DNA of 64,000 nt from Sphingorhabdus sp. Alg239-R122 (GTDB lineage: Bacteria; Pseudomonadota; Alphaproteobacteria; Sphingomonadales; Sphingomonadaceae). Numbering within the stretch: position 1 is the stretch's first letter; each line of letters begins with the position of its first letter. The notes beneath the pieces are model-generated. The model did not search any database and was not told where the DNA came from. It saw only the letters and a program-made list of their open reading frames with translations. Position numbers and translations under genes: made by a program. Of this stretch, positions 214-12,485 are shown in pieces. Where the stretch lies: positions 56,429-120,428 of the forward strand of contig NZ_UNRC01000006.1 in the NCBI RefSeq assembly GCF_900537065.1, in the 5' to 3' direction.

Positions 214-565
214 TATTGTGATTTTCTGGAGCTAATAATGACTAGTAGTCATGCAACAGAACATGGGTCCTGCTAGCGCAAGACCCATGTTTTGTGACTG
301 AACTTTACTGCTGGCACATCCGGATGTTCTGCCATCGCCTATGCTGGGCGCTATGCATGTGAAGCCAGCAGCACCCTATGGCTATGGCCGCAATATCAAT
401 CAACCAGATGGTGGCAAACACTCACCAAAGTGAATGACACATCTGTCTCATTTTATCTGACGACGGACATAGCATATCGAACCATCATAGATAATCTCCC
501 ACATAATCACAATACATACTATAGTTGATAAACAATAATGCATATAAACGCCAATAGTTTCTTGC
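214..565. other. Gene-poor stretch between acs and the XRE regulator
   Basis: About 350 nt without a supportable gene. It holds the acs terminator at its left end and an AT-rich right end (about 470-560) that presumably contains the promoter of the rightward XRE gene. I see no clear operator palindrome. Confidence 0.5.
261..294 (+). terminator. Rho-independent terminator of acs
   Basis: Perfect 9-bp arms (ACATGGGTC at 261-269, GACCCATGT at 282-290) enclose a 12-nt loop and run into TTTTG. The position just after the acs stop codon suggests it ends acs transcription. Confidence 0.75.
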
Positions 566-772
566 ATGGATATGCGAAAACTTGTGGGCAGGAATGTCAG
601 CCGGATCCGAAAGGAGAGGGGACTGACCCAGGAACAGCTCTCTGAGCTCTCCGGCTTATCGCAGCAATATCTTAGTGACCTGGAGCGCGGGAAGCGCAAT
701 CCGACTATCGTCACTATCCATGAAATCGCTCTTGCACTGGACGTTACGCATGTGGAGATCGTGGCGCCCTAA
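566..772 (+). CDS. XRE-family HTH transcriptional regulator, 68 aa
   Basis: A compact single-domain DNA-binding protein. Residues about 8-64 form a classic Cro/C1 helix-turn-helix: R-x-R-K-E-R-G-L-T-Q-E-Q-L-S followed by the recognition helix and Y-L-S-D-L-E-R-G-K-R-N-P. The protein has no effector domain, so it probably acts as a dimeric repressor or activator; the target is unknown. The ATG at 566 is taken as the start, and a second ATG two codons later is possible. Small solitary XRE proteins of this kind are also found as antitoxins or controller proteins, but no toxin or restriction gene lies next to it. The four genes to the right run on the opposite strand, convergent with it. Confidence 0.85.
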   Translation: MDMRKLVGRNVSRIRKERGLTQEQLSELSGLSQQYLSDLERGKRNPTIVTIHEIALALDVTHVEIVAP

Positions 773-784
773 GCAATATGAGTA

Positions 785-848
785 GCCCCTTTATGAGCAG
801 CTATATAGTATTGGCACGTTTACATAATAGCTGGCTGCAACATAGAGG
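785..848 (+). repeat. Diverged ~63-bp direct repeat, left copy
   Basis: Matches 2760-2822 with conserved blocks ATGAGCAGCTATAT, GTTT-CA-AATA and GGCTGCA-CA. It lies in the convergent gap after the XRE gene. An ATG in the repeat (793) opens a 32-codon frame ending at 891. Differences between copies include synonymous third-base changes in that frame, so the repeat may be the start of a duplicated small gene. Confidence 0.7.
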
Positions 849-897
849 GCGGGGCATTAGCGTTATAGTGACCGGTATTAAACTTACGTAATGTTGA

Positions 898-1356
898 TTA
901 GATTAACTCGGTCTGCACCCATCGTTCAATAGAGTGTTGCGCTTTATCGGTAAGTTCTAAAAAAATTCTCCGACTATCACGTCTATCAGGCCTTCGCCGA
1001 AGCAGCTCAAATTCTACGAGCATATCAATATACCGAAGAGCTGTGGTAGCCGGCACTTTGGAAGCAATACAGGCGCTGGAAATACAAATGGCATTACCTG
1101 ATGCTTGAGTTACATAAATATCCAGTAAAATGTCCCAGGCAGGTTCTCCAAAAAGGCCAGTAGGAAAATATTTTTGACGTGCAGTCCTCTCGTGAAGGTG
1201 AGTCGCTGCCTTATTTGCGTACATAAGTTTAGTAGAAAGTTGCTGGTTAGCGTCCAGTCCATGGCCCGCGAGCTCAGCAAAAAATAATGACGCGTCCGAA
1301 AGCGTCTCCGCTATCTTCGTAAGGTCTATACTATTCGGCACACTCCTTTGAGTCAC
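898..1356 (-). CDS. MarR-like winged-helix regulator
   Basis: 152 residues from the GTG at 1356. The C-terminal half (about 70-145) reads as a MarR winged helix: a helix ending in P-A-T-T-A-L-R-Y-I-D-M-L, then the wing L-L-R-R-R-P-D-R-R-D-S-R-R-I-F-L-E-L-T-D-K-A, which is diagnostic for the family. The N-terminal ~65 residues are poorly conserved and may carry the dimerisation or sensing part. The coding region overlaps the 3' end of the upstream membrane-protein gene by 26 nt, implying translational coupling; an internal GTG at 1341 is a possible alternative start. The ligand is unknown. It sits in a leftward set with two small proteins and a LuxR-HTH protein, so it may control that set. Confidence 0.72.
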   Translation of the reverse strand: MTQRSVPNSIDLTKIAETLSDASLFFAELAGHGLDANQQLSTKLMYANKAATHLHERTARQKYFPTGLFGEPAWDILLDIYVTQASGNAICISSACIASKVPATTALRYIDMLVEFELLRRRPDRRDSRRIFLELTDKAQHSIERWVQTELI

Positions 1357-1768
1357 CTGGCTGTGCCAAGTTGGATGACTGATCCATTGCTATTCCGATA
1401 ACCATAGCCAGTAAACCAGGAATTGCCCAAAAACCTCCTAACGCTTGATAAATGCTTGCTGCAAAACTTGCCGAAAATAGTGTTGCCATATGCGTTGCCA
1501 CGGTATTCACCTGGAAAGCTGCCACCCAAAGCGGCCAATAAGCCTTGCTGGAAAGGGCAATGGCTAGCATTGCCATAAGCGTAATCAAATCGATCACCAT
1601 AACTATGAACTGTGTCTCTAGCCAACTGTCCGTCTCCTGCCCGGTGAGTGAGAGCAATGAAGCGCAAAGGATTACCAGAGAGGCCCTTCTGCCATCACGG
1701 CCTCCAGCGAATGATGCATATGTGCAACTTAGAATGACCAGCATCCAGAAAAAGATTACGATTTCCAT
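1331..1768 (-). CDS. Small integral membrane protein of unknown function
   Basis: 145 residues with about four hydrophobic segments (near residues 2-18, 30-43, 53-72 and 100-128). There is a short basic loop A-G-G-R-D-G-R-R after the first segment and a polar tail. I recognise no family. It is followed directly by the MarR-like gene, which overlaps its end, and lies in the same leftward group as the DUF-like 114-aa protein and the LuxR-HTH protein, so a shared membrane-linked signalling or stress role is possible but not shown. The start at ATG 1768 is the first in frame; its Shine-Dalgarno is weak. Confidence 0.6.
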   Translation of the reverse strand: MEIVIFFWMLVILSCTYASFAGGRDGRRASLVILCASLLSLTGQETDSWLETQFIVMVIDLITLMAMLAIALSSKAYWPLWVAAFQVNTVATHMATLFSASFAASIYQALGGFWAIPGLLAMVIGIAMDQSSNLAQPGDSKECAE

Positions 1769-1826
1769 TCAAGAAGTCCATGACTTTGCCTCTCAATGGT
1801 CAAGGTAGATTGCGGTAATATCCTAG

Positions 1827-2171
1827 TTACGCACGGTGAACGTCAGCTTCTCTCAGCTTTGCGCTTTCATTCCCCAATCCACCCGGGCAACCATAGCCTA
1901 CCTCAGCAAGAGATGATTGAGCCTGGACTTTACCTAAGGTCCTAACTGTATCCGCCATTTTTGCGCGCCCCGAGATGATTAGACTAATCGCATCGGCTGT
2001 TGAACCCAGGAGTTGCTGGCTTGTATGAATGGGTAGTCTGCTGTCTCTGCTGCCTTCAACCAACGATGTGATAAGCGCAGTCCCATCCAACAGGGCGGCA
2101 TCTATCGATTTGCAAACCCTTTGTGTGTCTGTTGCAACAATGGATCCAGTTGTCTCACTTATTTCAAACAT
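1827..2171 (-). CDS. Conserved-type small protein of unknown function, 114 aa
   Basis: The start is set at ATG 2171 because a strong AAGGGGAA ribosome site lies 5 nt upstream; a GTG 15 nt earlier would put that site inside the gene. The protein is soluble, rich in Ser/Thr/Ala, with a repeated short helical pattern (A-L-L-D-G-T-A-L-I-T-S-L-V-E then T-S-Q-Q-L-L-G-S-T-A-D-A-I-S-L-I). No domain is recognised. The pattern suggests a helical bundle. It lies between the LuxR-HTH gene upstream and the membrane-protein gene downstream, all leftward, so it is probably part of that operon. Confidence 0.55.
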   Translation of the reverse strand: MFEISETTGSIVATDTQRVCKSIDAALLDGTALITSLVEGSRDSRLPIHTSQQLLGSTADAISLIISGRAKMADTVRTLGKVQAQSSLAEVGYGCPGGLGNESAKLREADVHRA

Positions 2172-2221
2172 AGCTTCCCCTTTCACGCAAATAGCGTGTT
2201 ATTTCTGCTCGACTATTCGAG

Positions 2222-2677
2222 TTAGCTAAATACGGCCAAAACACCTGAGGTTATGAGCGCGATGGCAGTGAAAATTACCAAAGAAATTACTGCTATCTGC
2301 AATATGCCCAAAACCCTGCGTCCTGTTTCTAGCTGATTTGGCTTACCTCCGAGTAACGGCAATGTGAACATTTGGCGAAACAAAGACCTTTGCTCATTTT
2401 GTTCCGACGCTCTCAGGTTACTTGATTTTTGCGGGTCGGCAATGGACTCCGGCTGACTAGGTAATTTCTGCCTAGATGCACTGTCTCGAAAAAATCGAGC
2501 TGCTTCTGCTCTGTTTGCAGCCTGCAAAACGGTAACAGCAGCATGTAGATGATTATCGACTGTTGATGGGGAGATATCAAGAAGGCGCGCGATTTCTTTC
2601 GATGTATAGCCATCACCTACCAACCTCAGACAATCTTTCTGACGATCAGTTAGCTTTTCGATTCTACTTGGCCCCAT
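2222..2677 (-). CDS. LuxR-type HTH protein with C-terminal membrane anchor
   Basis: 151 residues. Residues about 6-60 are a GerE/LuxR helix-turn-helix: L-T-D-R-Q-K-D-C-L-R-L-V-G-D-G-Y-T-S-K-E-I-A, then I-S-P-S-T-V-D-N-H-L. A polar linker of about 60 residues follows, and a single hydrophobic segment (about 124-147) closes the protein. The order is unusual: the DNA-binding domain is first and a tail anchor last, with no receiver or autoinducer domain. It would tether DNA binding to the inner membrane. It is the first gene of the leftward set ending with the MarR-like gene. The start ATG 2677 precedes the first HTH residues closely, as expected. Confidence 0.8.
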   Translation of the reverse strand: MGPSRIEKLTDRQKDCLRLVGDGYTSKEIARLLDISPSTVDNHLHAAVTVLQAANRAEAARFFRDSASRQKLPSQPESIADPQKSSNLRASEQNEQRSLFRQMFTLPLLGGKPNQLETGRRVLGILQIAVISLVIFTAIALITSGVLAVFS

Positions 2678-3178
2678 ATTCTGATGCTAGAATTACAAAT
2701 TTGTAATGTCCACATACTCAATTTGGCTCAGCTTCATTGCCTTATACAATATTTGATCCGCCCCCTTATGAGCAGCTATATGGAGTTAGTGGGTTTGCAC
2801 AATACACGGCTGCACCAAGAGGTTGAGCATCCTACACATAAGATAACTTATCAACTGTCCGCAAACGACTGCTTTGCGCCCCAATGTCGGTCATTGCCCT
2901 TTAAGTCAACGCAGTCCAAAAGCAGACGTCCTGCGTATGCTGCACGGTCCGACAGCTCAATCTAATAGGTTTTCCTAAGGCCGTGGTCTTGGCTTCTCTG
3001 ACAGGTTGCATTCTCAAGGCGATATTGTCCAGCCTTAAGAGCTTGATCAACATAAATGTTTTACGGATGTGTGCGAAATGGAATACGGCAGTATTTTACC
3101 AAAGAAGCCATAAAATGGGTGCTCGCATTAATGAAAACGGCCGCTTTAGGGACCGAATATATACTGTTGTCAATTTGA
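2678..3178. other. Long intergenic stretch before the zinc operon
   Basis: About 500 nt with no gene I can support. It contains the right copy of the ~63-bp repeat (2760-2822), an open frame from ATG 2768 to 2965 that begins with that repeat, and at about 2860-2950 a degenerate GTCCGC / CGGTCATTGCC segment resembling the interspersed intergenic remnants common in sphingomonads. The promoter of the zinc operon lies at its right end. Confidence 0.5.
2760..2822 (+). repeat. Diverged ~63-bp direct repeat, right copy
   Basis: Partner of 785-848, about 1.97 kb away; the pair brackets the leftward MarR/membrane/unknown/LuxR gene set. The in-frame ATG is at 2768, and the peptide shares M-S-S-Y-x-x-L-x-x-L-H-N-x-x-L with the left copy. 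Confidence 0.7.
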
Positions 3179-3201
3179 TCAATGTAATATAGTTACATTG
3201 A
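3179..3201. promoter_or_regulatory. Zur-type operator overlapping promoter and start region
   Basis: Perfect palindrome with 9-bp arms and a 5-bp centre: TCAATGTAA, TATAG, TTACATTGA. It resembles the AATGTTATA-type half sites of Zur operators (one to two mismatches per half). It ends one base before the ATG at 3203. A -10-like TATAGT (3188-3193) lies inside it, with TTGTCA at 3167-3172 as a candidate -35 at 15-bp spacing. Transcription would then start near the ATG, which has no Shine-Dalgarno, so the first message may be leaderless. A Zur-like gene is present downstream in the same operon. Confidence 0.72.
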
Positions 3202-3202
3202 A

Positions 3203-3511
3203 ATGAAATTATCCTCGCATCGATTCAGGCGTAGATTTGCAGGCACCTTTTGGCTGCCTGTTGTTCTGTGTGTTTTGATGCTTGGCCAGATCATTGCGGC
3301 GGGGCACACGCACGAAAATCAATTTGACGCATCTCTGGAAACAGAATGTGCAATTTGTTCTTACGCAGCACAAAATGATGATTTTGATGTACCAAAGCCC
3401 ATAAGCGTTCAGGCTATCGAAGTTTCACATTCATGGTTTCCTGATGCGGTAAGCTGGCAGCCTGTCACTGTTACTTTCCAAGCAAAGGCGCGCGCGCCCC
3501 CTTATTTCTGA
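3203..3511 (+). CDS. DUF2946-like small secreted or membrane-anchored protein
   Basis: 102 residues. A basic N-terminus (R-F-R-R-R-F) and one hydrophobic segment (about 15-33) act as signal or anchor, followed by H35-T-H37, then C49-A-I-C52 and a C-terminal A-R-A-P-P. This His/Cys layout and the end are typical of DUF2946-type proteins that often precede TonB receptor genes in metal loci. A periplasmic metal-binding role is plausible but unproven. It is the first gene after the Zur-type palindrome and has no ribosome site, compatible with leaderless translation. A 173-nt gap separates it from the DUF1826 gene. Confidence 0.7.
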   Translation: MKLSSHRFRRRFAGTFWLPVVLCVLMLGQIIAAGHTHENQFDASLETECAICSYAAQNDDFDVPKPISVQAIEVSHSWFPDAVSWQPVTVTFQAKARAPPYF

Positions 3512-3684
3512 CGTCTGGTTGCAAACCGGCCGCAGCGTATCGCTGTACGGCCGCGTGTAACTGACTTTCCAAATATTATCAGCTGTCTGATCCGCTCGGG
3601 TCAGGCGCATTTTCTTTGGTTATACAGGAATGTAATAATGAATAATTCGAAAGTTGCGCACTTGATACTGGGTAGCCCTGTATC

Positions 3685-4212
3685 ATGAATTGCGCAGAGC
3701 TTGTCATTGACTGGGACGCAATCCGCGATCCGGCTTGCAGTATTCTTATTGAGCCGCGAATGCCCCCAATATCGGACATAAGCATAGAGGAGCTTTTAAG
3801 AGAGGCACCTTTTTCTTGGTATGTGGAAGGCACTTTGGATGAGGTCCAGGCAGACCTGATCACGTTACCTGGCGACATGCGGATCGACATTTCGAATCTC
3901 GGATCGCGTTTTATGAAACTGATGCACGTTGATAAACTGCGTGTCCGTATTGAAGGTGTCACCGGCAATGCCTGCAAGAAACTCCATGCCGATTATACCG
4001 ACCTGCGTCTGATTACAACATATGCTGGCGCAGGCACGGATTATGCGCCGCAAAATGATCGCCGTCTTGAACGCATGCCCACGGGTGCGGTTGGGCTGTT
4101 CAAAGGTAAGCTGTTCGGCAATGGGCACACCCCATGCCTGCATCGCTCTCCACCAATTGAAGGCACGAATGAAGCACGTCTCGTGCTGGTTATCGACACG
4201 CCTGAAAAATAG
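3685..4212 (+). CDS. DUF1826 family protein
   Basis: 175 residues. The N-terminal part has I-R-D-P-A-C-S-I-L. The middle has the R-V-R-I-E-G-V-T-G-N-A-C-K-K-L-H-x-D core, and the end has the family hallmark C-L-H-R-S-P-P-I with R-L-V-L-V-I-D. Biochemical function is unknown; I recall DUF1826 genes accompanying zinc-responsive COG0523/Zur loci, which fits this operon. An in-frame TAG just upstream fixes the start at ATG 3685. That ATG overlaps the stop of a 16-codon leader frame (3637-3688) that has its own AGGAA site, so translation may be coupled to the leader. Confidence 0.78.
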   Translation: MNCAELVIDWDAIRDPACSILIEPRMPPISDISIEELLREAPFSWYVEGTLDEVQADLITLPGDMRIDISNLGSRFMKLMHVDKLRVRIEGVTGNACKKLHADYTDLRLITTYAGAGTDYAPQNDRRLERMPTGAVGLFKGKLFGNGHTPCLHRSPPIEGTNEARLVLVIDTPEK

Positions 4213-4253
4213 AAATTTCATGCAATTTGAATAATAATATCAGGGAATTTATA

Positions 4254-6404
4254 ATGAAATACATATTCTTTCTAGCGACAGCATCCATCGCTTTCACGCC
4301 AGTTGCACCTGCATTCGCCCAAGACAGTGAAAATGATGAAGCCGAAATTGTCGTATCGGGTGTTCGCCCGGCCTATCGAGGTGATTTCGAAGAGCTTGAA
4401 ATTCCTCAGGCAGACCAAATCATTGATCAGGAAACACTGCGCGACGCAGGTGTAGTTGATTTGAATGCTGCTCTAGACCTGTCGGCTTCGGTGTCGCGGC
4501 AGAACAACTTTGGCGGACTGTGGAATAGCTTCTCCATCCGGGGCTTTTCGGGTGACATCAACCTGCCGAGCAACTTCCTCGTCAATGGCTTTAATGCGGG
4601 TCGCGGGTTTGGCGGGCCGCGCGATATTTCAGGGATTGAGGCTGTTGAGGTCCTAAAAGGTCCGCGCTCTGCGGTTTACGGGCGCGGTGAGCCCGGTGGC
4701 ACCATTAACCTGATCACCAAACGCCCACAGCTCGAGACATCGGGCTACGTTCAATTTCAAGGCGGCTCTTTCGATTTCTATCGCGGCGACATTGATCTGC
4801 AGACCACCCTCGGGGATAATGTTGGAGTCAGGATCGCAGGATTCTACGAAGATGCTGGGAGCTTTCGAGGGCCCAAGGAAACGCAAAAATATGGGTTCTA
4901 CCCGTCGGTGCGTTTTGACATAGGGGAAAGCTCGATCTTGACCTATGAACTGGAATACACCTCACAGGAATTGCCACAGGATCGCGGTGTCATCTTTTCC
5001 GATCAGTTCGGTTTCTCGCCGCGCAGATTGTTCACAGGTGAACCCGATGCGCTCATCGACACCGAGGTTCTGGGTCATCAGTTAGAGTTCCAGCACAACT
5101 TCAGCGACGATTGGAGTGTTCTTGTCGGTGCGGGATACAGGGAGACATCGCTTGTCGGAGATGCGTATGAGAATAATTTTGGCAGCCGTCAGCCTTATCT
5201 GATCGATGGTGAAACCATTTCGCGTTTTTTCCGGTTCAGGGACTATGAAGCGGATTATCTGGCTCTGCGCGCTGAACTAACAGGTGAGTTCAACACCGGG
5301 GGTATTCGTCACCGTGTGATCGTAGGTGTGGATTATGATGAGTTCGACAACGATCAGATAGCCAATCGTTTTCGCCAAGGCGGTATTGGCGGAGCGCCGA
5401 GCAGCTCGCTCGATCCGCAGACCTATCTGTTGATCGATGTGGATAATCCGCAATATGGCCTCTATCCGCGACCGATTCCAGCCGCGCAGATTGACCGACT
5501 GGAAACGACCAGCGGTTTCGGTTTCTACATTCAGGACCAGATCGATCTGACTGATAAACTTCAGTTTCGTTTTGGCGGCCGGTTTGACGATTTCGAGCAA
5601 AAACTGATCAACCGGCGCAGTGATCCTGCGGCTGTGAACGAATCTTCCAACAGTGCATTCTCGCCGCAGGCGGGCATCGTTTTTCGTGCAACCGGCGGGG
5701 TCAGTTTATACGCCTCCTACGGGGAAGGCATCCGCCAACTCTCTGGTACCGATTTTGAGGGAACATCGTTCGACCCGAACAAATCGACATCGCTAGAGGC
5801 AGGTATCAAACTTGACCTTGGCACAGTGTTTTCCGGAGTGCAGGGGTCGGCCTCTGCCACCGTCTTTGACGTCGATCAGAGCAACATTCTTATCTTTGAT
5901 TCCCGTCCAGAGGCAGCCGGAGAATTAATTCCGGCCGGCGAGGCGCGCAGCCGCGGACTGGAACTGGATGCCAATGCCAGCTTCGATAGTGGCCTGCGTG
6001 TCTGGTTCTCCTACGCGTATACTGATGCGGAATATACGAATAGCGGCACCGACTCGGCGACTTTTACAACATTTGACCCGGGCGAGCCGCTGATCAACTC
6101 GCCCGATCATCAGCTGAGCCTGCAGGCATCGCAGAGCTTTGCAATCGCTGACCTTGCCGCACAAATTGGCGGAGGTGTCCTTTATGTTGGTGAACGAAAC
6201 GGTGAAGTGGGCGGCGATTTTGTTTTGCCAGATTACACAACTATCCGTCTGTTCGGTCAGATTGAACCGATCGAAAACCTGGCGATCCGCCTTGATATCG
6301 ATAATCTGTTCGACGAGACCTTTTACACGGATTCCTTTGCCAATGTCTGGGTGCAACCGGGCGCTCCAAGAACAGTACGCGTTTCCGCTCGTTTCAAATT
6401 TTAA
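4254..6404 (+). CDS. TonB-dependent outer-membrane receptor of the zinc operon
   Basis: 716 residues. The start ATG 4254 has AGGGA 8 nt upstream and begins a clear signal peptide (M-K-Y-I-F-F-L-A ... A-F-A-Q-D). The plug domain (about 25-150) contains V-E-V-L-K-G-P-R-S-A-V-Y-G-R-G-E-P-G-G, typical of siderophore-type receptors; the rest is a 22-strand barrel ending in aromatic F-K-F. It would import a chelate or metal complex across the outer membrane using TonB. The siderophore-type plug alone would suggest iron, but the operon has a Zur-like gene and a Zur-type operator, so a zinc-complex substrate is my preferred inference. The ABC ATPase gene starts 18 nt downstream. Confidence 0.9.
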   Translation: MKYIFFLATASIAFTPVAPAFAQDSENDEAEIVVSGVRPAYRGDFEELEIPQADQIIDQETLRDAGVVDLNAALDLSASVSRQNNFGGLWNSFSIRGFSGDINLPSNFLVNGFNAGRGFGGPRDISGIEAVEVLKGPRSAVYGRGEPGGTINLITKRPQLETSGYVQFQGGSFDFYRGDIDLQTTLGDNVGVRIAGFYEDAGSFRGPKETQKYGFYPSVRFDIGESSILTYELEYTSQELPQDRGVIFSDQFGFSPRRLFTGEPDALIDTEVLGHQLEFQHNFSDDWSVLVGAGYRETSLVGDAYENNFGSRQPYLIDGETISRFFRFRDYEADYLALRAELTGEFNTGGIRHRVIVGVDYDEFDNDQIANRFRQGGIGGAPSSSLDPQTYLLIDVDNPQYGLYPRPIPAAQIDRLETTSGFGFYIQDQIDLTDKLQFRFGGRFDDFEQKLINRRSDPAAVNESSNSAFSPQAGIVFRATGGVSLYASYGEGIRQLSGTDFEGTSFDPNKSTSLEAGIKLDLGTVFSGVQGSASATVFDVDQSNILIFDSRPEAAGELIPAGEARSRGLELDANASFDSGLRVWFSYAYTDAEYTNSGTDSATFTTFDPGEPLINSPDHQLSLQASQSFAIADLAAQIGGGVLYVGERNGEVGGDFVLPDYTTIRLFGQIEPIENLAIRLDIDNLFDETFYTDSFANVWVQPGAPRTVRVSARFKF

Positions 6405-6422
6405 GAATAGGAAGGTAGAGTT

Positions 6423-7142
6423 ATGACATCTCCGCTTGAAGCTCGCTCGCTCTCGCTGGTACGCGAAGGGAATACAGTTCTTGACGATGTTTCTTTTACA
6501 GTCGCCCAAGGAGAGATATTCGCTTTACTGGGCGGTAATGGTGCGGGTAAATCGAGCACTTTACTGACCTTTCTCGGCTTTCTCGAGCCTTCGGGCGGCG
6601 ATATACTGGTCAACGGAACCAGTGTTGGCAGTGATGTTGCTCTGGCGCGCTCAGCTATTGCTTATCTGCCGGAAGCTGCTGCGCTTTACGGACATATGAC
6701 CGCTTATGAAAATCTCGATTATTTTCTCGATTTGGCGGACAAGCTAGCCAGTCAGGCTGAAATAGATGCGGCACTAGAGCGTGTAGCATTACTCGTAGAG
6801 GCGCGGTCCCGGCGATTGCAATCCTATTCCAAGGGGATGCGGCAAAAGACGGCAATCGCGCTTGCGCTGCTTCGCGAGACGCCGATCCTACTACTTGATG
6901 AGCCAACATCGGGTCTTGATCCCATTGCCATCGATGAGTTTCACGATTTGGTCAAGGCGCTCGCTGAGGGCGGCCAAACTATCTTGATGGTGACGCATGA
7001 TGTTTATGGTGCATGTCAGGTCGCGGATCGGGTGGGCCTGCTCCGACGGGGCAAGCTTGTTGGCAGTTTTGCAGCCGAGAATAACAAGCGGATAAACACC
7101 GAAGCCGTGCATGCAGCATTTGCAGAGCGAGAAGCAGTATGA
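6423..7142 (+). CDS. ABC transporter ATPase (ABC-2 type)
   Basis: 239 residues. Walker A G-G-N-G-A-G-K-S (37-44), signature S-K-G-M-R-Q (136-141), Walker B I-L-L-L-D-E (155-160), D-loop S-G-L-D (163-166) and switch H192 are all present, so it should hydrolyse ATP. The Q-loop position reads Y-L-P-E, common in the CcmA/NosF-like ABC-2 branch. It is the only ATPase in the operon and should energise the two following permeases; the next gene overlaps it by 4 nt (ATGA). The ABC-2 class usually exports or does membrane work rather than binding-protein-dependent import, and no periplasmic binding protein gene is present. Confidence 0.92.
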   Translation: MTSPLEARSLSLVREGNTVLDDVSFTVAQGEIFALLGGNGAGKSSTLLTFLGFLEPSGGDILVNGTSVGSDVALARSAIAYLPEAAALYGHMTAYENLDYFLDLADKLASQAEIDAALERVALLVEARSRRLQSYSKGMRQKTAIALALLRETPILLLDEPTSGLDPIAIDEFHDLVKALAEGGQTILMVTHDVYGACQVADRVGLLRRGKLVGSFAAENNKRINTEAVHAAFAEREAV

Positions 7143-8575
7143 CAGCAATAACTCGCATCGCGCGTGAAGAGTGGCGACTATGGCTGCGTTCAAAAACAGT
7201 TGTGGCTGCTGCGCTGATCGTTGTAGCCTTGTTGACAGCCACAAGCGTTCTAACGGTCCACCGTATTGCTTCCGAGCAATCGCAGCGGCTCGAACAGCAG
7301 GTCGCAGCAGAGCAGACTTTTTTTGCGCAACCGGATCGCCACCCGCATCGTATGGTGCATTATGGTCACTATGCTTTCCGCCCTCCGCCGCCACTCGCCA
7401 TGTTTGAACCTGGTGTCGATGCCGTTACTGGCCAGTCGATCTTTCTTGAAGGTCACCGCCAGAATACGGCCATGTTTGCCGATACCAAAGCAGCTGCTGA
7501 TCTCGGCGGATTTGCGGCACTAACTCCGGCAGGTCTCTATCAGTTACTGCTACCGCTCCTCCTCATCGTGCTGGGTCATGCGCTTTTCCTGCGTGAGCGG
7601 GAGAGTGGCACGCTTGCCGTGATGCTGGCACAGGGGCAATCGGGTGTGAAGCTGGCACTGGGCAAGGCAACGGCTTTGCTTGTGGTTATTGCCATCTTCA
7701 TGATCCCGCTGATCGCGGTCGCTGCCTATTCAGTAAGTTTGGGCGAGAGCGCGCTTGCTGCCTTTTCGCTGGTCGGCGGATATTTCGCTTATTTATGTAT
7801 ATGGGGCGCTATCGTTCTTACCGCTTCGGTCATCCTGAAACAGCGTGCCGTCTCGCTCGGTGTATTGATTTTCATATGGCTGTTCGCCGCACTAATCGTA
7901 CCGCGCTTTGCCATCAATGCGAGCAGCGTAGCAATCGACGCGCCGGGCAAAATCGAGAGCGATCTTGTGATGCTGGCTGAACAGCGCAAGCTGGGCGATG
8001 GCCACAACGCGGCTGATCCGGCCTTCCAGCGTTTGCAAGACCAAGTGCTGAAGCAATATGATGTCGAAACTATTGAAGAATTGCCAATAAACTGGCGCGG
8101 TGTCGTCGCATCCTATTCAGAGGCTGAACTGACCGAATTGCTGAATGATTACACCGAAAAACGCATGGGCCTTGAAGCTAGCCAGTCCCGCATGTTCGAA
8201 TGGTTCGGACTGGCATCACCAACCATATCTGTCAGCTCGCTATCGCGCGCACTCGCGGGGACAGATCTTGCGACGCACCATCGTTTCCTGCGCGAAAGTG
8301 AAGTTTTGCGCTTTGATTTTGTCCAATCACTCAATCAGGCTCATGCCGAAAAGCTGGATTACACGACAGATATCAATCGCAACAATGATGCGGCATCTGC
8401 ACAGCGGGCACGGATCAATTCGGCAAGTTGGCAAGTGCTTGATGAGTTTCGCTTTGCCCCTGACAGCGCCAGCAAGCGTCTCGGTAGAACTGCACTATCG
8501 CTGGGGATACTTATTATGTGGCTGTTGCTAGCCTGCGTTATTGTGCTCCTCACTGCGCGGAGGGTAAGAGTATGA
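7139..8575 (+). CDS. ABC-2 type permease with large periplasmic domain (DUF3526-like), first
   Basis: 478 residues. One membrane helix (about 19-39), a long external segment, then a cluster of helices between about 135 and 260, a second external segment of about 170 residues, and a final helix near the C-terminus. Family layout matches DUF3526-type ABC-2 permeases. A His-rich stretch in the first external loop (R-H-P-H-R-M-V-H-Y-G-H-Y, about 66-78) could bind metal. Translationally coupled to the ATPase before it and to the second permease after it by 4-nt overlaps. It probably forms a heterodimer with the next gene product; the substrate is unknown, and zinc-related traffic is inferred from context. 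Confidence 0.82.
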   Translation: MTAITRIAREEWRLWLRSKTVVAAALIVVALLTATSVLTVHRIASEQSQRLEQQVAAEQTFFAQPDRHPHRMVHYGHYAFRPPPPLAMFEPGVDAVTGQSIFLEGHRQNTAMFADTKAAADLGGFAALTPAGLYQLLLPLLLIVLGHALFLRERESGTLAVMLAQGQSGVKLALGKATALLVVIAIFMIPLIAVAAYSVSLGESALAAFSLVGGYFAYLCIWGAIVLTASVILKQRAVSLGVLIFIWLFAALIVPRFAINASSVAIDAPGKIESDLVMLAEQRKLGDGHNAADPAFQRLQDQVLKQYDVETIEELPINWRGVVASYSEAELTELLNDYTEKRMGLEASQSRMFEWFGLASPTISVSSLSRALAGTDLATHHRFLRESEVLRFDFVQSLNQAHAEKLDYTTDINRNNDAASAQRARINSASWQVLDEFRFAPDSASKRLGRTALSLGILIMWLLLACVIVLLTARRVRV

Positions 8576-9825
8576 TGTTGCGAAATTTTGCCCGCGAAAT
8601 CCGTTTCCTTTCCAAGGACCGAGGCGCGCTATTCTGGCTGGCGCTTTCATTCATCCTTTCGGTGATTGCCGTCTCATTCGGTGTGACCGAGGTTCGTGAA
8701 CAGCGCGAGACTATTGCAAATTTGATTGAGGAAGACGCTGCAGATCGTGCCAATGCGCTGGAGGGACAGGAAGATTGGGGAAGTGCCGCCTATTATGCTT
8801 TCCACTTTACCTATGCTCCGCCGTCTGACTTTGCCTTTGCGGCGATGGGGCAGCGTGACAGCACGCCGTGGAAGCACCGGGTGCGCATGCTTGCTTTAGA
8901 AGCCCAAATACATGAGGCTGATACGCGTAACGCGGATTTTGGTCTGGTCGGCAGGTTCGACTTTGCCTTTCTGGCAGCGTCGGTTGTTCCGCTGCTTCTC
9001 ATTCTCTTGCTCTATGACCTGCGCGCGTCCGAACGAAGTGCCAGCAGGCATGATTTTCTGGTAGCGACTGCGGGTTCATCGCTCTCATTATGGTTTCCAA
9101 GGGCCTTGGTCAGAGTTGCCGGGCTTGCGCTCCTGTTGCTCGTTCCCCTCTGGGTTGCCTCGTTAATCGCGGGAGCATCAGGAATGGTTACCTTGCAAGC
9201 AACCGGCATCGTAGTTGGCGCGCTGGCTGTCTGGTGGCTGATAGTTGAGCTGGTCAGCCGTATCAAAGCCTCTCCATCCGTTCTGCTCACCTCTCTCATA
9301 GGATTGTGGCTGGCTCTAGCTATCGTTGTTCCGGCGCTCTCCAAAGCTGTCATCGAAACGAATAATCCTATTCCAGATGGCGGTGAAATTCTGTTACTTC
9401 AGCGAGAAACCGTGAACGATGCCTGGGACCTACCCAAAGAAGCGACGATGAAGCCGTTCATCGAAACTCACCCTGAATGGCGAGAATACGCGGAAATCGA
9501 AGAGGGGTTCGAATGGAAATGGTACTACGCTTTCCAGCAAGTCGGTGATCAAAAAGCGGCTCCGCTTGTCGAACAATATCGTGAAGCACGACTCAGACGT
9601 GACCGCCAGGCCGGGATCGCCGCGTTGCTTTCTCCAACCTCTTTTGTCGAACGCGCTTTTGAAAAACTGGCCGGTACAGATGCGGTTTCCATGATTGCCT
9701 ATGAAGATGAGGTGCGTGATTTTCATGCCGAGCTTCGGGCATTTCACTATCCGCTTATGTTTCCAGAGAAGGACTATGATTCGGGGCTACTGGCTGAACT
9801 TCCGCTTTACAAGCCCGAGAGCTGA
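8572..9825 (+). CDS. ABC-2 type permease with periplasmic domain (DUF3526-like), second
   Basis: 417 residues, starting at the ATG that overlaps the preceding stop (ATGA). Topology repeats that of the first permease: a helix at about 20-40, an external domain (A-A-Y-Y-A-F-H-F-T-Y-A-P-P-S-D), a helix cluster between about 130 and 260, then a long external segment; the final helix of its partner seems absent or very short. Shared motif with the partner: external domain ending before P-L-L-L-I-L-L-L-Y-D-L-R-x-S-E-R-x-S. The pair and the ATPase likely form one complex. A 124-nt gap follows, holding a 41-codon open frame and then zur. Confidence 0.8.
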   Translation: MMLRNFAREIRFLSKDRGALFWLALSFILSVIAVSFGVTEVREQRETIANLIEEDAADRANALEGQEDWGSAAYYAFHFTYAPPSDFAFAAMGQRDSTPWKHRVRMLALEAQIHEADTRNADFGLVGRFDFAFLAASVVPLLLILLLYDLRASERSASRHDFLVATAGSSLSLWFPRALVRVAGLALLLLVPLWVASLIAGASGMVTLQATGIVVGALAVWWLIVELVSRIKASPSVLLTSLIGLWLALAIVVPALSKAVIETNNPIPDGGEILLLQRETVNDAWDLPKEATMKPFIETHPEWREYAEIEEGFEWKWYYAFQQVGDQKAAPLVEQYREARLRRDRQAGIAALLSPTSFVERAFEKLAGTDAVSMIAYEDEVRDFHAELRAFHYPLMFPEKDYDSGLLAELPLYKPES

Positions 9826-9827
9826 AC

Positions 9828-9953
9828 GTGCCAGATCGCCAGAACATTGATCCAAACCGCTTTAGAACCGGGGCGGGTGCCTGTCTTCTCACACTTGCGT
9901 ATTGGTGCACTCGGCGACTTTGCAAGCTTTGCATTGTTATATCAGAATCATGA
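9828..9953 (+). CDS. Possible 41-aa Cys-rich peptide before zur
   Basis: A GTG-initiated frame fills the gap between the second permease and zur and ends in a TGA overlapping zur's tandem ATG codons. It encodes four Cys residues (A-C-L-L-T, W-C-T-R-R-L-C-K-L-C) and no recognisable domain. The tight fit at both ends argues for translation, possibly coupling; the lack of a good ribosome site argues against. Low confidence. Confidence 0.25.
   Translation: MPDRQNIDPNRFRTGAGACLLTLAYWCTRRLCKLCIVISES
9931..9949 (+). promoter_or_regulatory. Possible second Zur half-site before zur
   Basis: GCATTGTTATATCAGAATC directly precedes the zur start. The left half (ATTGTTATA) fits a Zur half-site; the right half is degenerate. 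It could allow autoregulation, but the match is weak. Confidence 0.3.
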
Positions 9954-10378
9954 TGACGGTAAGGCGAAAACCCTATTCGACTGATCACAATGTCCTTAAT
10001 GTTATGGAATCTAAAAAGCGGCCGCTCAGCGCTTATCAAATCGCTGATGCGCTTACACGCATAACACACACGCAGGTCTATCGCGCATTGGACCGTCTGA
10101 TTCTGGCGGGCAGCGTAAGAAAGATTACTTCGTGCAACCACTTTGTTACTGCATCAGCTGCGCATGAAATCGCCATGGTCTGCAAACGATGCGGATATTG
10201 TGAGTTGCGGCAAAATGATGCTGCATTCTCGGCACTTGGCACATTATGTGCCGCCCAAGGTTTTACGGTCCGTGAAGCATTCATCGAAATCTCGGCCATC
10301 TGCAGCAATTGCGTAGAGGCCGATGGAAAGCTATGTTCAACAACGCCCAATAAAACGGAGACGATTTCCCATGATTAG
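9950..10378 (+). CDS. zur: Fur-family repressor, Zur-like
   Basis: 142 residues from ATG 9950 (an ATG follows immediately at 9953). The winged helix includes S-A-Y-Q-I-A-D-A-L and V-Y-R-A-L-D-R-L-I-L-A-G; the metal-binding half has H72-E, C78-K-R-C81-G, E-I, and C118-S-N-C121. Two CxxC pairs and the L-S-A-Y-Q-I helix start favour Zur over Fur. It should repress under zinc sufficiency by binding the palindrome at 3179-3201 and perhaps its own upstream site. Unusually it is near the end of the operon it would control. Its last 8 nt overlap the S46 peptidase start. Fur or a peroxide regulator is the alternative. Confidence 0.82.
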   Translation: MMTVRRKPYSTDHNVLNVMESKKRPLSAYQIADALTRITHTQVYRALDRLILAGSVRKITSCNHFVTASAAHEIAMVCKRCGYCELRQNDAAFSALGTLCAAQGFTVREAFIEISAICSNCVEADGKLCSTTPNKTETISHD

Positions 10379-12422
10379 ACGTTCAATTTTCCTCGCTTCT
10401 GCTGCAATAACCATGTTCAGCGCGGTGCCTTCACCAGCTCTTGCCGATGAAGGCATGTGGACTCTGGATGCATTTCCAGCCGAACAGATGCGCGAAAAAT
10501 ACGGATGGGCACCCGACCAGGCATGGCTCGACCGGGTACAGGCGGCTTCGGTACGTTTGACAGGTGGTTGCTCCGCCAGCTTCGTTTCGCATCAAGGGCT
10601 CATTCTCACCAACCATCACTGCATCGCAAGCTGCCTGTATGAAAATTCGACCGATGCGGACGATTTTCTGAAGCGCGGCTTTATTGCGGCGAACCGTGAG
10701 CAAGAGAAGAAGTGCGCTGGTCAACAGGCCGAGATTGTCACCAGTATTGTCGATGTGACAGACGATATAACAGCAGCCATTGGCGATGCCACTGGCGAAG
10801 CGCTTACCAAAGCGCGCAGCGCAAAAATTGCCGCACTCGAAAGTGCGGGTTGTACCGATATGAAAACTACCCGCTGCCAAGTCGTCACTCTTTTTGGCGG
10901 CGGCCAGTACAAGCTTTATATTTATCGCAAATATTCCGATGTCCGGCTGGTCTGGGCACCCGAAGACCGGGCGGCAACATTTGGCGGCGATCCCGATAAC
11001 TTCAATTTCCCGCGCTATTCGCTCGATGCCTCGTTCCTGCGCGCTTATGAAAATGGCAAGCCCGTTGCGACGCCCGCGCACCTCACATGGAACCCGCGTC
11101 CGCCAAAGGAAGGCGAAGTTACATTCGTTGTCGGTAATCCCGGCTCGACATCACGGCTTTATACGCAGAGCCAGCTTGCCTTTGAACGCGAAGTGCGTCT
11201 GCCGGTGACGCTCACCACCCTGTCCGAACTGCGCGGACGGCTTATCCGTGCGATGGAGGAAAACTCGGAAAAGGAACGTGAAGGGCTGGACCTGCTTGGC
11301 GGTATCGAAAACTCGCTGAAAGTCTATATTGGCCGTACCAGGGCGCTGAACGATCCTGCCTTCACCGCGAAACTTGCCGAAGCCGAAACCGAACTGAAAG
11401 CGAAAAGTAGGAGCAATGCCGCTATTGATGATCCATGGACTAGCGTGGATGAGGCAATGCAGGCCTATCGCTCCTATTATCTATCTTCTCGCTTTACCGA
11501 TCCTTCTGGCGATCTATACGGCTATGCGCAGGCATTAGTGCTGGCCGCCATCGAACGTGAAAAACCCAATGCGGAGCGTTTGCCCGGCTATACCGACAGC
11601 GCGCTTCCTCTTACGGAAAAGCGGTTGCTTGATGAGCGGCCAATCTATCCATGGCTTGATGAACTGATATTCGGATGGAGTTTATCGAAGGGCCGCGAAT
11701 ATCTGGGCGCGGATGATCCTGATACGAAATTGATATTGGGCAAGGAAAGCCCCGAGCAACTGGCCGAACGGCTAGTAAATGGAAGCGACCTTGCCAACTC
11801 CGAAATGCGCAAAAAGCTGTGGGATGGCGGGATGGCAGCTATCGAAGCGTCCGACGATCCAATGATTGCTTTCGCACGAAAGCTTGAAGGGAGGCAGCGT
11901 GAACTAAAGCAGCAGATCGACGAAAATTATAGCGGCCCGCTCGCCACTACCGGTGCCAAACTCGCCGATGCGCGTTTTGCTGCCTATGGCGACAAACTCT
12001 ATCCCGACGCGACCTTTACGCTGCGCATCAGCTACGGCCAGGTAAAGGGCTGGATGGAGCGCGGCCAGCAGGTACCGATTGCCACCACCATGGGCGGCAC
12101 GTTTGACCGCGCAACCGGCAATGAACCGTTCGACCTCGCACCCGCGTTTGCAGCGAACAAGAACAAGATTGATCCCGCCACGACATATGATTTCGTATCG
12201 ACCAACGATATTATTGGGGGCAATTCCGGTTCGCCGGTGATTGATAAGGAAGGCACTGTGATCGGCGCGGCGTTTGATGGCAATATCCACTCGCTCGGCG
12301 GGAATTATGGTTACGATCTTAATCTTAACCGTACAGTATCGGTGTCCACGGCCGCAGTACAGGAGGCACTGGAGACGATATACCCGGCACCGCACTTAGT
12401 AAAAGAGCTTGCAGGAAAATAG
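10371..12422 (+). CDS. S46-family dipeptidyl-peptidase (DPP7/DPP11 type), secreted
   Basis: 683 residues. The signal peptide M-I-R-R-S-I-F-L-A ... A-L-A-D-E sets the start at ATG 10371, inside the last codons of zur. Chymotrypsin-fold catalytic residues are visible: His82/83 in T-N-H-H-C, the Asp loop F-G-G-D-P-D-N-F-N-F-P-R (about 204-215), and Ser619 in G-G-N-S-G-S-P-V. S46 enzymes remove dipeptides from peptide N-termini in the periplasm. Its place in the zinc-type operon suggests a role under zinc limitation, when zinc peptidases would lose activity; that is inference. An efficient terminator follows. Specificity (DPP7 versus DPP11) cannot be assigned safely. Confidence 0.93.
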   Translation: MIRRSIFLASAAITMFSAVPSPALADEGMWTLDAFPAEQMREKYGWAPDQAWLDRVQAASVRLTGGCSASFVSHQGLILTNHHCIASCLYENSTDADDFLKRGFIAANREQEKKCAGQQAEIVTSIVDVTDDITAAIGDATGEALTKARSAKIAALESAGCTDMKTTRCQVVTLFGGGQYKLYIYRKYSDVRLVWAPEDRAATFGGDPDNFNFPRYSLDASFLRAYENGKPVATPAHLTWNPRPPKEGEVTFVVGNPGSTSRLYTQSQLAFEREVRLPVTLTTLSELRGRLIRAMEENSEKEREGLDLLGGIENSLKVYIGRTRALNDPAFTAKLAEAETELKAKSRSNAAIDDPWTSVDEAMQAYRSYYLSSRFTDPSGDLYGYAQALVLAAIEREKPNAERLPGYTDSALPLTEKRLLDERPIYPWLDELIFGWSLSKGREYLGADDPDTKLILGKESPEQLAERLVNGSDLANSEMRKKLWDGGMAAIEASDDPMIAFARKLEGRQRELKQQIDENYSGPLATTGAKLADARFAAYGDKLYPDATFTLRISYGQVKGWMERGQQVPIATTMGGTFDRATGNEPFDLAPAFAANKNKIDPATTYDFVSTNDIIGGNSGSPVIDKEGTVIGAAFDGNIHSLGGNYGYDLNLNRTVSVSTAAVQEALETIYPAPHLVKELAGK

Positions 12423-12444: not shown

Positions 12445-12485
12445 AGCCAAACTCCGCAGTTCCATATTGCGGAGTTTGGCTTTTG
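12445..12485 (+). terminator. Strong terminator of the zinc operon
   Basis: 14-bp arms (AGCCAAACTCCGCA at 12445-12458 and its exact complement at 12468-12481) with a 9-nt loop, followed by TTTT. Located 23 nt after the S46 peptidase stop. Confidence 0.9.

Follow-up and report, generated by a model that had tools for sequence, protein, structure and literature searches.

In Caulobacter crescentus, Zur represses the receptor gene znuK and the divergent genes znuGHI (CC1517–CC1520), which were called a transporter of ATP-binding cassette type 2 (ABC-2) (Mazzon et al. 2014, PMC4176598). According to the available text of that study, the zur mutant showed 41-, 29-, 38- and 12-fold increases across znuK/znuGHI in microarrays, ethylenediaminetetraacetic acid (EDTA) induced lacZ fusions, Zur bound the shared znuK/znuGHI promoter in electrophoretic mobility shift assays (EMSA) and znuK was needed for growth in zinc starvation; ZnuGHI, named in 2014, was described as a putative uptake system (PMC4176598). 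The present analysis concerns a gene array at positions 3203–12422 of a 64,000-nucleotide (nt) stretch of the genome of Sphingorhabdus sp. Alg239-R122 (contig NZ_UNRC01000006.1, 56,429 to 120,428; hereafter the window), which encodes a TonB-dependent receptor, an ABC ATPase, two ABC-2 permeases (permeases 1 and 2), a DUF1826 protein, a short Fur-family protein (the short Zur) and an S46 peptidase. Very likely, this locus includes a zinc-starvation operon that Zur represses, that was probably acquired, and that resembles Caulobacter ZnuK/ZnuGHI in type while encoding a regulator of its own; its assignment as a Zur-controlled zinc-starvation operon is well supported. The operon is of a known kind in a new layout, and its sensor-less Zur is a new part.

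The comparison was made with a locus of Caulobacter vibrioides DSM 9893 (L092), one of 17 loci exactly matching the published Zur box. The receptor (3.65e-82), the ATPase and both permeases of the window match the proteins encoded beside the L092 box, with the identities given in Table 1 (the L092 receptor open reading frame (ORF) is cut at the locus end), and both L092 permeases match DUF3526 in Pfam (1.4e-40 and 2.2e-38). No permease matches were obtained in the remaining 16 Zur-box loci, and DUF3526 was present in only one of 14 control genomes, namely that of Caulobacter vibrioides. Homology of the four core proteins to genes flanking the box, together with gene order a direct observation, indicates that the window operon is, judged by its proteins, of the ZnuK/ZnuGHI type. 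Both systems combine a receptor, an ATPase and two DUF3526 permeases with a promoter palindrome, the one in the window being a predicted operator of Zur-box type, and neither has a binding-protein gene. They differ in layout: in Caulobacter, the receptor gene diverges from znuGHI, with a single box between, whereas in the window the genes run one way behind one operator and include a small first gene, DUF1826, the short Zur and the adjoining S46 peptidase gene.

The presumed job, high-affinity zinc uptake under Zur, is like that of ZnuABC; unlike ZnuABC, the window operon has neither an ABC-3 permease nor a ZnuA-type binding protein and uses ABC-2 components instead. No match to the ABC-3 permease (ZnuB) was found in the genome of Sphingorhabdus sp. 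Alg239-R122 (the host genome), and it is likewise absent from the C. vibrioides control; across the order, 35 of 296 genomes have it, a single one of them from the window's family, and it accompanies permease 1 in 2 of the 45 genomes that carry the latter. A preliminary description of the locus, made from its sequence, had proposed a Zur-type zinc-limitation system unlike znuABC and with no binding-protein gene, and the homology of the core to the Zur-repressed, EDTA-induced ZnuK/ZnuGHI system bears this out. A word search of 5.39 million papers did not find the word DUF3526, and the DUF3526 permeases of ZnuGHI look almost unstudied.

The predicted operator, which the preliminary description had seen as a perfect palindrome, is an inverted repeat with 9-nt arms, a 5-nt spacer and no mismatches. 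Its last base lies 1 nt short of the first ATG, and it overlaps a plausible −10 element (TATAGT, 3188–3193, with TTGTCA at 3167–3172 and a 15-nt spacer; picked out by eye, beyond the limits of the promoter scan). Since the palindrome abuts the first ATG and covers this −10 element, the first transcript may be leaderless. The position of such sites in relatives was observed directly. In 21 loci, TGTWAYNNNRTWACA-like sites with up to two mismatches number 23 in 14,721 nt upstream of the receptor, where 1.4 would be expected, and 36 in 373,780 nt elsewhere; at least one upstream site is found in 18 of the 21. The Poisson value for these sites is optimistic, because three overlapping pairs are counted among the 23 and some of the 21 loci are closely related, with the published Caulobacter locus also among them. 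Of the matches to the Caulobacter-type Zur box TGTTAYNNNRTAACA in the host genome, the sole perfect one lies 10 nt ahead of exbD (C3:267170-267184; L112 1501-1515) and one of six one-mismatch sites lies 54 nt ahead of tonB (C12:18402-18416; L117 1501-1515), which suggests, by the placing of the sites, that the TonB system feeding the receptor may itself be under zinc control through Zur; the other five one-mismatch sites have no obvious zinc gene adjoining, one of the five having been Pfam-tested. As a separate observation, a variant operator, TGATAT-N3-RTATCA, recurs ahead of the receptor in several relatives (L070 4494, L080 6518, L081 10032, L087 12199) and perhaps reflects a shifted Zur specificity.

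Homologues of permease 1 (E up to 1e-20) were found in 45 of the 296 genomes of the order, with 79–85% identity in five genomes of other genera, and in neither of the two congeners searched. Such a patchy distribution, absent from congeners and with close copies in other genera, indicates that the operon was probably acquired. GC content does not set it apart (0.525 for 3179–9825, 0.545 in the remainder of the window), and a gene after the operon matches the two congeners at just 34–36%, too low to fix the boundaries of the acquired stretch. Of 20 neighbourhoods of about 19 kb each, all had an annotated receptor match and 17 an annotated permease 1; in the other three (L073, L082 and L087) the simple ORF picker had chosen overlapping frames, and it missed some ATPases as well. 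The neighbourhood is thus conserved in relatives, a point on which the preliminary description had made its reading depend, and it extends to plasmids of Betaproteobacteria and Bacteroidota. Twelve plasmid records had a permease 1 match; eight were opened, and in five of the six with gene tables the receptor stands beside the permeases. Plasmids annotated with the module core come from Eleftheria and Comamonas (Betaproteobacteria), Hymenobacter and Spirosoma (Bacteroidota) and Blastomonas; one Methylocystis plasmid has the ABC part with no receptor adjoining. The His-rich loop noted earlier in one ABC-2 permease proved to be conserved: the permease 1 motif RHPHRxVHYG...LEGHRQN, located between the first hydrophobic stretches, is kept across 28 homologues, its four histidines in 93–96% and its other named positions in 86–96%.

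DUF1826, a MerC protein, an AstE/AspA deacylase (Pfam-confirmed in 6 of the 20 neighbourhoods) and an acyltransferase (2 of 20) are variable companions of the module. The AstE/AspA-type deacylase, not present in the window, follows permease 2 in L068, L070, L072, L074 and L075 and occupies 6414–7508 of L076; an M14 metallopeptidase follows the second permease in Hymenobacter (L126 9718–10773). In L076 (11030–12196) and L077 (9737–10903), receptor and ATPase are separated by an HGSNAT-type membrane acyltransferase, which may modify the cargo.

At the membranes, the TonB-energised receptor would carry zinc through the outer membrane, either by itself or in a complex that others have made, and the ABC-2 complex of one ATPase and two DUF3526 permeases would handle the metal at the inner membrane, its conserved histidine cluster being taken as periplasmic; we infer that the direction is most likely uptake. 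A different use of the complex, in which ATP would be spent on remodelling or loading a periplasmic protein or the receptor with no transport of zinc, is unlikely. The model for it is NosDFY, where ABC-2 permeases are linked to metal handling. In its favour, the highest-probability matches of the predicted structure of permease 1 are NosY-type chains (7o0y_D, probability 0.90, E only 0.2), and the long conserved non-membrane parts and the histidine motif of this protein would suit such a machine. The likeness is a weak structural match with no significant similarity, however: the AlphaFold2 model of permease 1 is poor (mean predicted local distance difference test score 57.6, 4-row alignment), Foldseek gave no match reaching E 0.001, no solved homologue of permease 1 was found, and no NosD or NosL-like gene was recognised by Pfam in the operon.

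Quite unlikely, too, is a metallophore circuit, in which the ABC-2 pair would export a self-made zinc chelator and the receptor would retrieve it loaded. The preliminary description had named zincophore export by this pair as one possibility; ABC-2 permeases are generally classed as exporters, the receptor falls in a siderophore-receptor subfamily and some relatives carry possible modifying enzymes (the AstE/AspA deacylase, the M14 metallopeptidase of Hymenobacter and the HGSNAT-type acyltransferase). These enzymes are optional, however, and no synthase was recognised in Pfam tests that covered ten proteins of the window and, in the relatives' 20 loci, a minority of the neighbours; the preliminary description itself saw none in the window. 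Export of a zincophore is not supported; the Caulobacter system is treated as one of putative uptake, and its receptor is needed in zinc starvation, as far as the available text of the study goes (PMC4176598). Uptake through the ZnuGHI-like complex is kept as the more likely reading, and the histidine motif and the pairing of receptor and pump in Alphaproteobacteria, Betaproteobacteria and Bacteroidota make it a testable question whether an ABC-2 fold can import metal.

The embedded regulator had been labelled zur on the strength of its Fur-family sequence and two CxxC pairs. Both of these features stand, but the protein does not reach the Pfam FUR cut-off (18.7 versus 23.1 bits) or that of NCBIfam Zur (56.8 versus 167 bits), and it is not the main Zur, the host genome having a separate full-length Zur (on contig C2) and a Fur, both elsewhere. 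It aligns to Escherichia coli Zur (PDB 4mtd) at 3.7e-11. In E. coli Zur, site A consists of Cys103, Cys106, Cys143 and Cys146, site B of His77, Cys88, His96 and Glu111, and bases are read by Tyr45 and Arg65; mutating either zinc site abolishes repression, and a single mutation in site B suffices (PMC4219657, available text). The short Zur shares Tyr45, Arg65 and the four cysteines of site A with it and has Arg for His77, Ala for Cys88 and Leu for Glu111; its lone histidine falls at or near the position of His96, depending on the aligner, so that at most one of four sensory ligands is left. Compared with full-length Zurs of its family, its sensory loop is short by four residues; these full-length proteins keep a variant site (HPxC-x-HDC with His at 111), while five znuB-linked Zurs of another family retain the E. 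coli ligands; neither the canonical site nor the family variant is present in the short Zur of the window. This loss of ligands is directly visible in the alignments, by which the embedded zur encodes a short paralogue, beside the main Zur, that has lost most or all of its sensory zinc site.

Further proteins of this kind were found with profiles: one of seven short Zurs added four in 296 genomes, and one of eleven added nine, not used in building it, in 397 genomes of the family. The total of 20 is a lower bound, because several further genomes with two Zur matches were left unclassified; divergent Zur-like genes with longer loops near the module in G024 and G270 were excluded from it. Single site B ligands survive in two others, Cys88 in G132 and His77 in L188, and the nine newly found proteins have no site B residue except one His77. 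No description of sensor-less Zur paralogues was found in the titles and abstracts searched. As a separate observation, the short Zur of L185 (G466 contig C8) has kept its base-reading residues, has lost both zinc sites and adjoins a COG0523-like gene.

In the first set, which took in 10 of the 11 short Zurs identified by that point, zinc-acquisition markers were found near 10 of 10 short Zur genes versus none of 21 full-length ones, all of the latter from the window's family. Some of these matches are those of a locus to its own reference protein; with self-references dropped, nine of the ten loci, the window being the exception, still match the references of other loci, two of the nine (G166 and G167) by the receptor only. 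The eleventh short Zur, that of G212, was left out of the scan; its neighbours are COG0523 and DUF1826. In the second set, eight of nine short Zurs have, at a distance of up to about 1.6 kb, COG0523, DUF1826, the FtsX-type ABC system or a receptor resembling those next to other short Zurs (in one case a receptor only), versus none of seven full-length Zurs, four of which (G088, G108, G130 and G161) were already in the first set. Full-length Zurs of another family (f8) do adjoin an ABC-3 permease, and proximity to zinc genes is therefore not by itself a mark of the short kind.

These data also make it improbable that the short Zur is a decaying, functionless copy. Decay would agree with the long branches and weak resolution of the short Zur tree (10 of 13 rows in one group, 81/82 support, and three elsewhere), with the loss of both zinc sites in L185 and with L188, which has no zinc marker nearby; three alignment rows had been dropped before the tree was built: L139 and L152, which repeat L029 and L033, and L150, which was labelled canonical but is G132's short Zur. 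On the other hand, the 20 members all keep Tyr45 and Arg65, the structural Cys4 site is complete in 18, and short Zurs recur in zinc islands; decay would be unlikely to spare the base-reading residues and yet lose the same site each time. Control of the cluster by iron and Fur is highly improbable. In its favour, the best equivalog scores of the receptor are to ferrichrome and ferrioxamine receptors, all far below the cut-offs; against it, lacZ fusions and EMSA identified the homologous Caulobacter genes as targets of Zur (PMC4176598, available text), the operon has DUF1826 and a predicted Zur-type operator, and COG0523, DUF1826, MerC and ZIP genes stand beside other short Zurs.

For the Zur-controlled zinc-starvation operon, regulation by Zur and dependence on the receptor in zinc starvation are taken over from the Caulobacter work, and binding in Sphingorhabdus sp. 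Alg239-R122 is what we infer. In zinc-replete cells, full-length Zur would occupy 3179–3201 across the −10 region and keep the operon off, and it would leave the operator as zinc runs out. The short Zur, if co-transcribed, would be made mainly while the operon is on. Most likely it would act at the same operators independently of zinc, as a local feedback brake, a competitor or a heterodimer partner of the main Zur; zinc-blind action is suggested because the base-reading residues are kept and the intact sensory site is lost.

Several points weigh against this reading. The available text of the Caulobacter study contains no znuGHI deletion or transport assay (PMC4176598). In E. coli, a single site B mutation abolishes repression, which makes the short Zur unlikely to be an effective repressor alone (PMC4219657, available text). 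Import by a fold of the ABC-2 exporter type would be mechanistically unusual. As a regulon-wide signal by itself, the palindrome was rejected: its core TGTAATATAGTTACA is the sole exact TGTAAYNNNRTTACA match in the 2.5-Mb host genome, and with up to one mismatch TGTAAYNNNRTTACA gave 7 matches versus 21 in the reversed control. The same applies to TGTTAYNNNRTAACA as a genome-wide signal (150 versus 207, up to two mismatches), so the significance of the motif comes from its position in relatives, and only position carries weight. L072, L084 and L086 have no site in the 700 nt upstream of the receptor that were tested (3 of 21 loci); L072 has a perfect site farther upstream, ahead of its first gene. 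Finally, the half-site is TGTAA here and TGTTA in Caulobacter, so that sequence alone cannot say which regulator binds. Three relatives with a single Zur match each (G276, G286 and G229) also carry TGTAA-type sites, which means that this half-site does not require a short Zur.

We put forward tentatively that sensor-less Zurs could be a distinct class of zinc-blind, operator-reading regulators that travel with zinc islands in this bacterial family and set their gain, and that the ABC-2 pump of the window's island replaces ZnuABC for zinc intake. If so, the short Zurs, made mainly after derepression of the island, would set gain either as a local brake (negative feedback) or as an antirepressor, by sequestering the main Zur (positive feedback). 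They would represent a natural case in which a metal sensor retains its reading of DNA but gives up sensing, and does so time and again inside the very islands acted upon.

The S46 peptidase, listed in the preliminary description as a partner in the operon, was rejected as a functional member. None of the 20 neighbourhoods had an annotated S46 match, and a targeted search of eight genomes (E up to 1e-20) matched only the window's own. S46 proteins were found at E up to 1e-60 in 68 of the 296 genomes of the order; the permease 1 carriers G168, G191 and G270 have a close copy (76–78% identity), located on a different contig or over 1 Mb away from permease 1. Among the neighbours in the nine best other S46 loci, none except S46 matched the genes of window positions 1–22000; the check is weak, since in four of these loci the simple ORF picker overlooked even S46. 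Probably, the peptidase is a bystander outside the conserved unit, its overlap with the short zur being incidental.

The eight genes of 3203–12422 form a contiguous array on the plus strand in the ORF list of the window (Table 1), confirming the one-way arrangement described before. The overlaps of 4–8 nt then reported hold at three junctions only: ATPase/permease 1 (4 nt), permease 1/permease 2 (4 nt, assuming that permease 2 starts at ATG 8572) and short Zur/S46 (8 nt); the remaining junctions are gaps of 173, 14–41, 18 and about 124 nt. Pfam and NCBIfam searches of the window proteins confirmed the families proposed for the TonB receptor, the DUF1826 protein, the ABC ATPase, the permeases (DUF3526 at 3.6e-31 and 1.7e-31) and the S46 peptidase. 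The label DUF2946 for the first gene found no support, either in Pfam or in BLAST against one annotated DUF2946 protein.

Table 1. Predicted features of the zinc-type locus (window positions)
Feature	Position	Strand	Remarks
Predicted operator, perfect inverted repeat TCAATGTAA-TATAG-TTACATTGA	3179..3201	.	Zur-box type, core TGTAA-N5-TTACA
First gene, small protein	3203..3511	+	N-terminal hydrophobic stretch, HTHEN motif; no Pfam match
Terminator-like hairpin in the gap between first gene and DUF1826	3584..3607	+	Consensus match only
DUF1826 protein	3685..4212	+	PF08856, 1.8e-28
TonB-dependent receptor, ZnuK-like	4227..6404	+	TIGR01783 (siderophore-receptor subfamily), 1.8e-87; 33% to L092 receptor
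ABC ATPase, ZnuG-like	6423..7142	+	PF00005; 50% to L092
ABC-2 permease 1, ZnuH-like, DUF3526	7139..8575	+	PF12040 + PF12679; 36% to L092
ABC-2 permease 2, ZnuI-like, DUF3526	8572..9825	+	PF12040; 40% to L092
Short Zur paralogue	9950..10378	+	Tyr45/Arg65 and Cys4 structural site kept, sensory zinc site lost
S46 dipeptidyl-peptidase	10371..12422	+	2.1e-211
Intrinsic-terminator-like hairpin	12445..12481	+	13-bp stem, then TTTTG

The receptor more likely starts at ATG 4254 than at 4227; the short Zur starts at ATG 9950 or 9953, TTG 9902 also being open, and a pattern scan of the gap ahead of it gave no promoter-like site. Relatives of the first-gene protein occur in L072 (43%, in the same place, likewise with no Pfam match) and, more weakly, in L076 (25%) and L077 (34%). 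DUF1826 is among the zinc- or Zur-responsive genes of Pseudomonas and Francisella in the available parts of the sources. The strong terminator expected at the end was confirmed as a hairpin of −30.8 kcal/mol (z −6.5, matched by 0 of 200 shuffles), which a separate terminator pattern scan does not list. The hairpin at 3584–3607, one of 19 terminator-like pattern sites in the region versus 11.3 expected, may be an attenuator or may end a short transcript of its own. In L071, a perfect Zur box is followed by a small gene, an ABC ATPase, an FtsX-type permease and DUF3299 (324–3352), and this FtsX-type set is a second zinc-type module adjoining the first.

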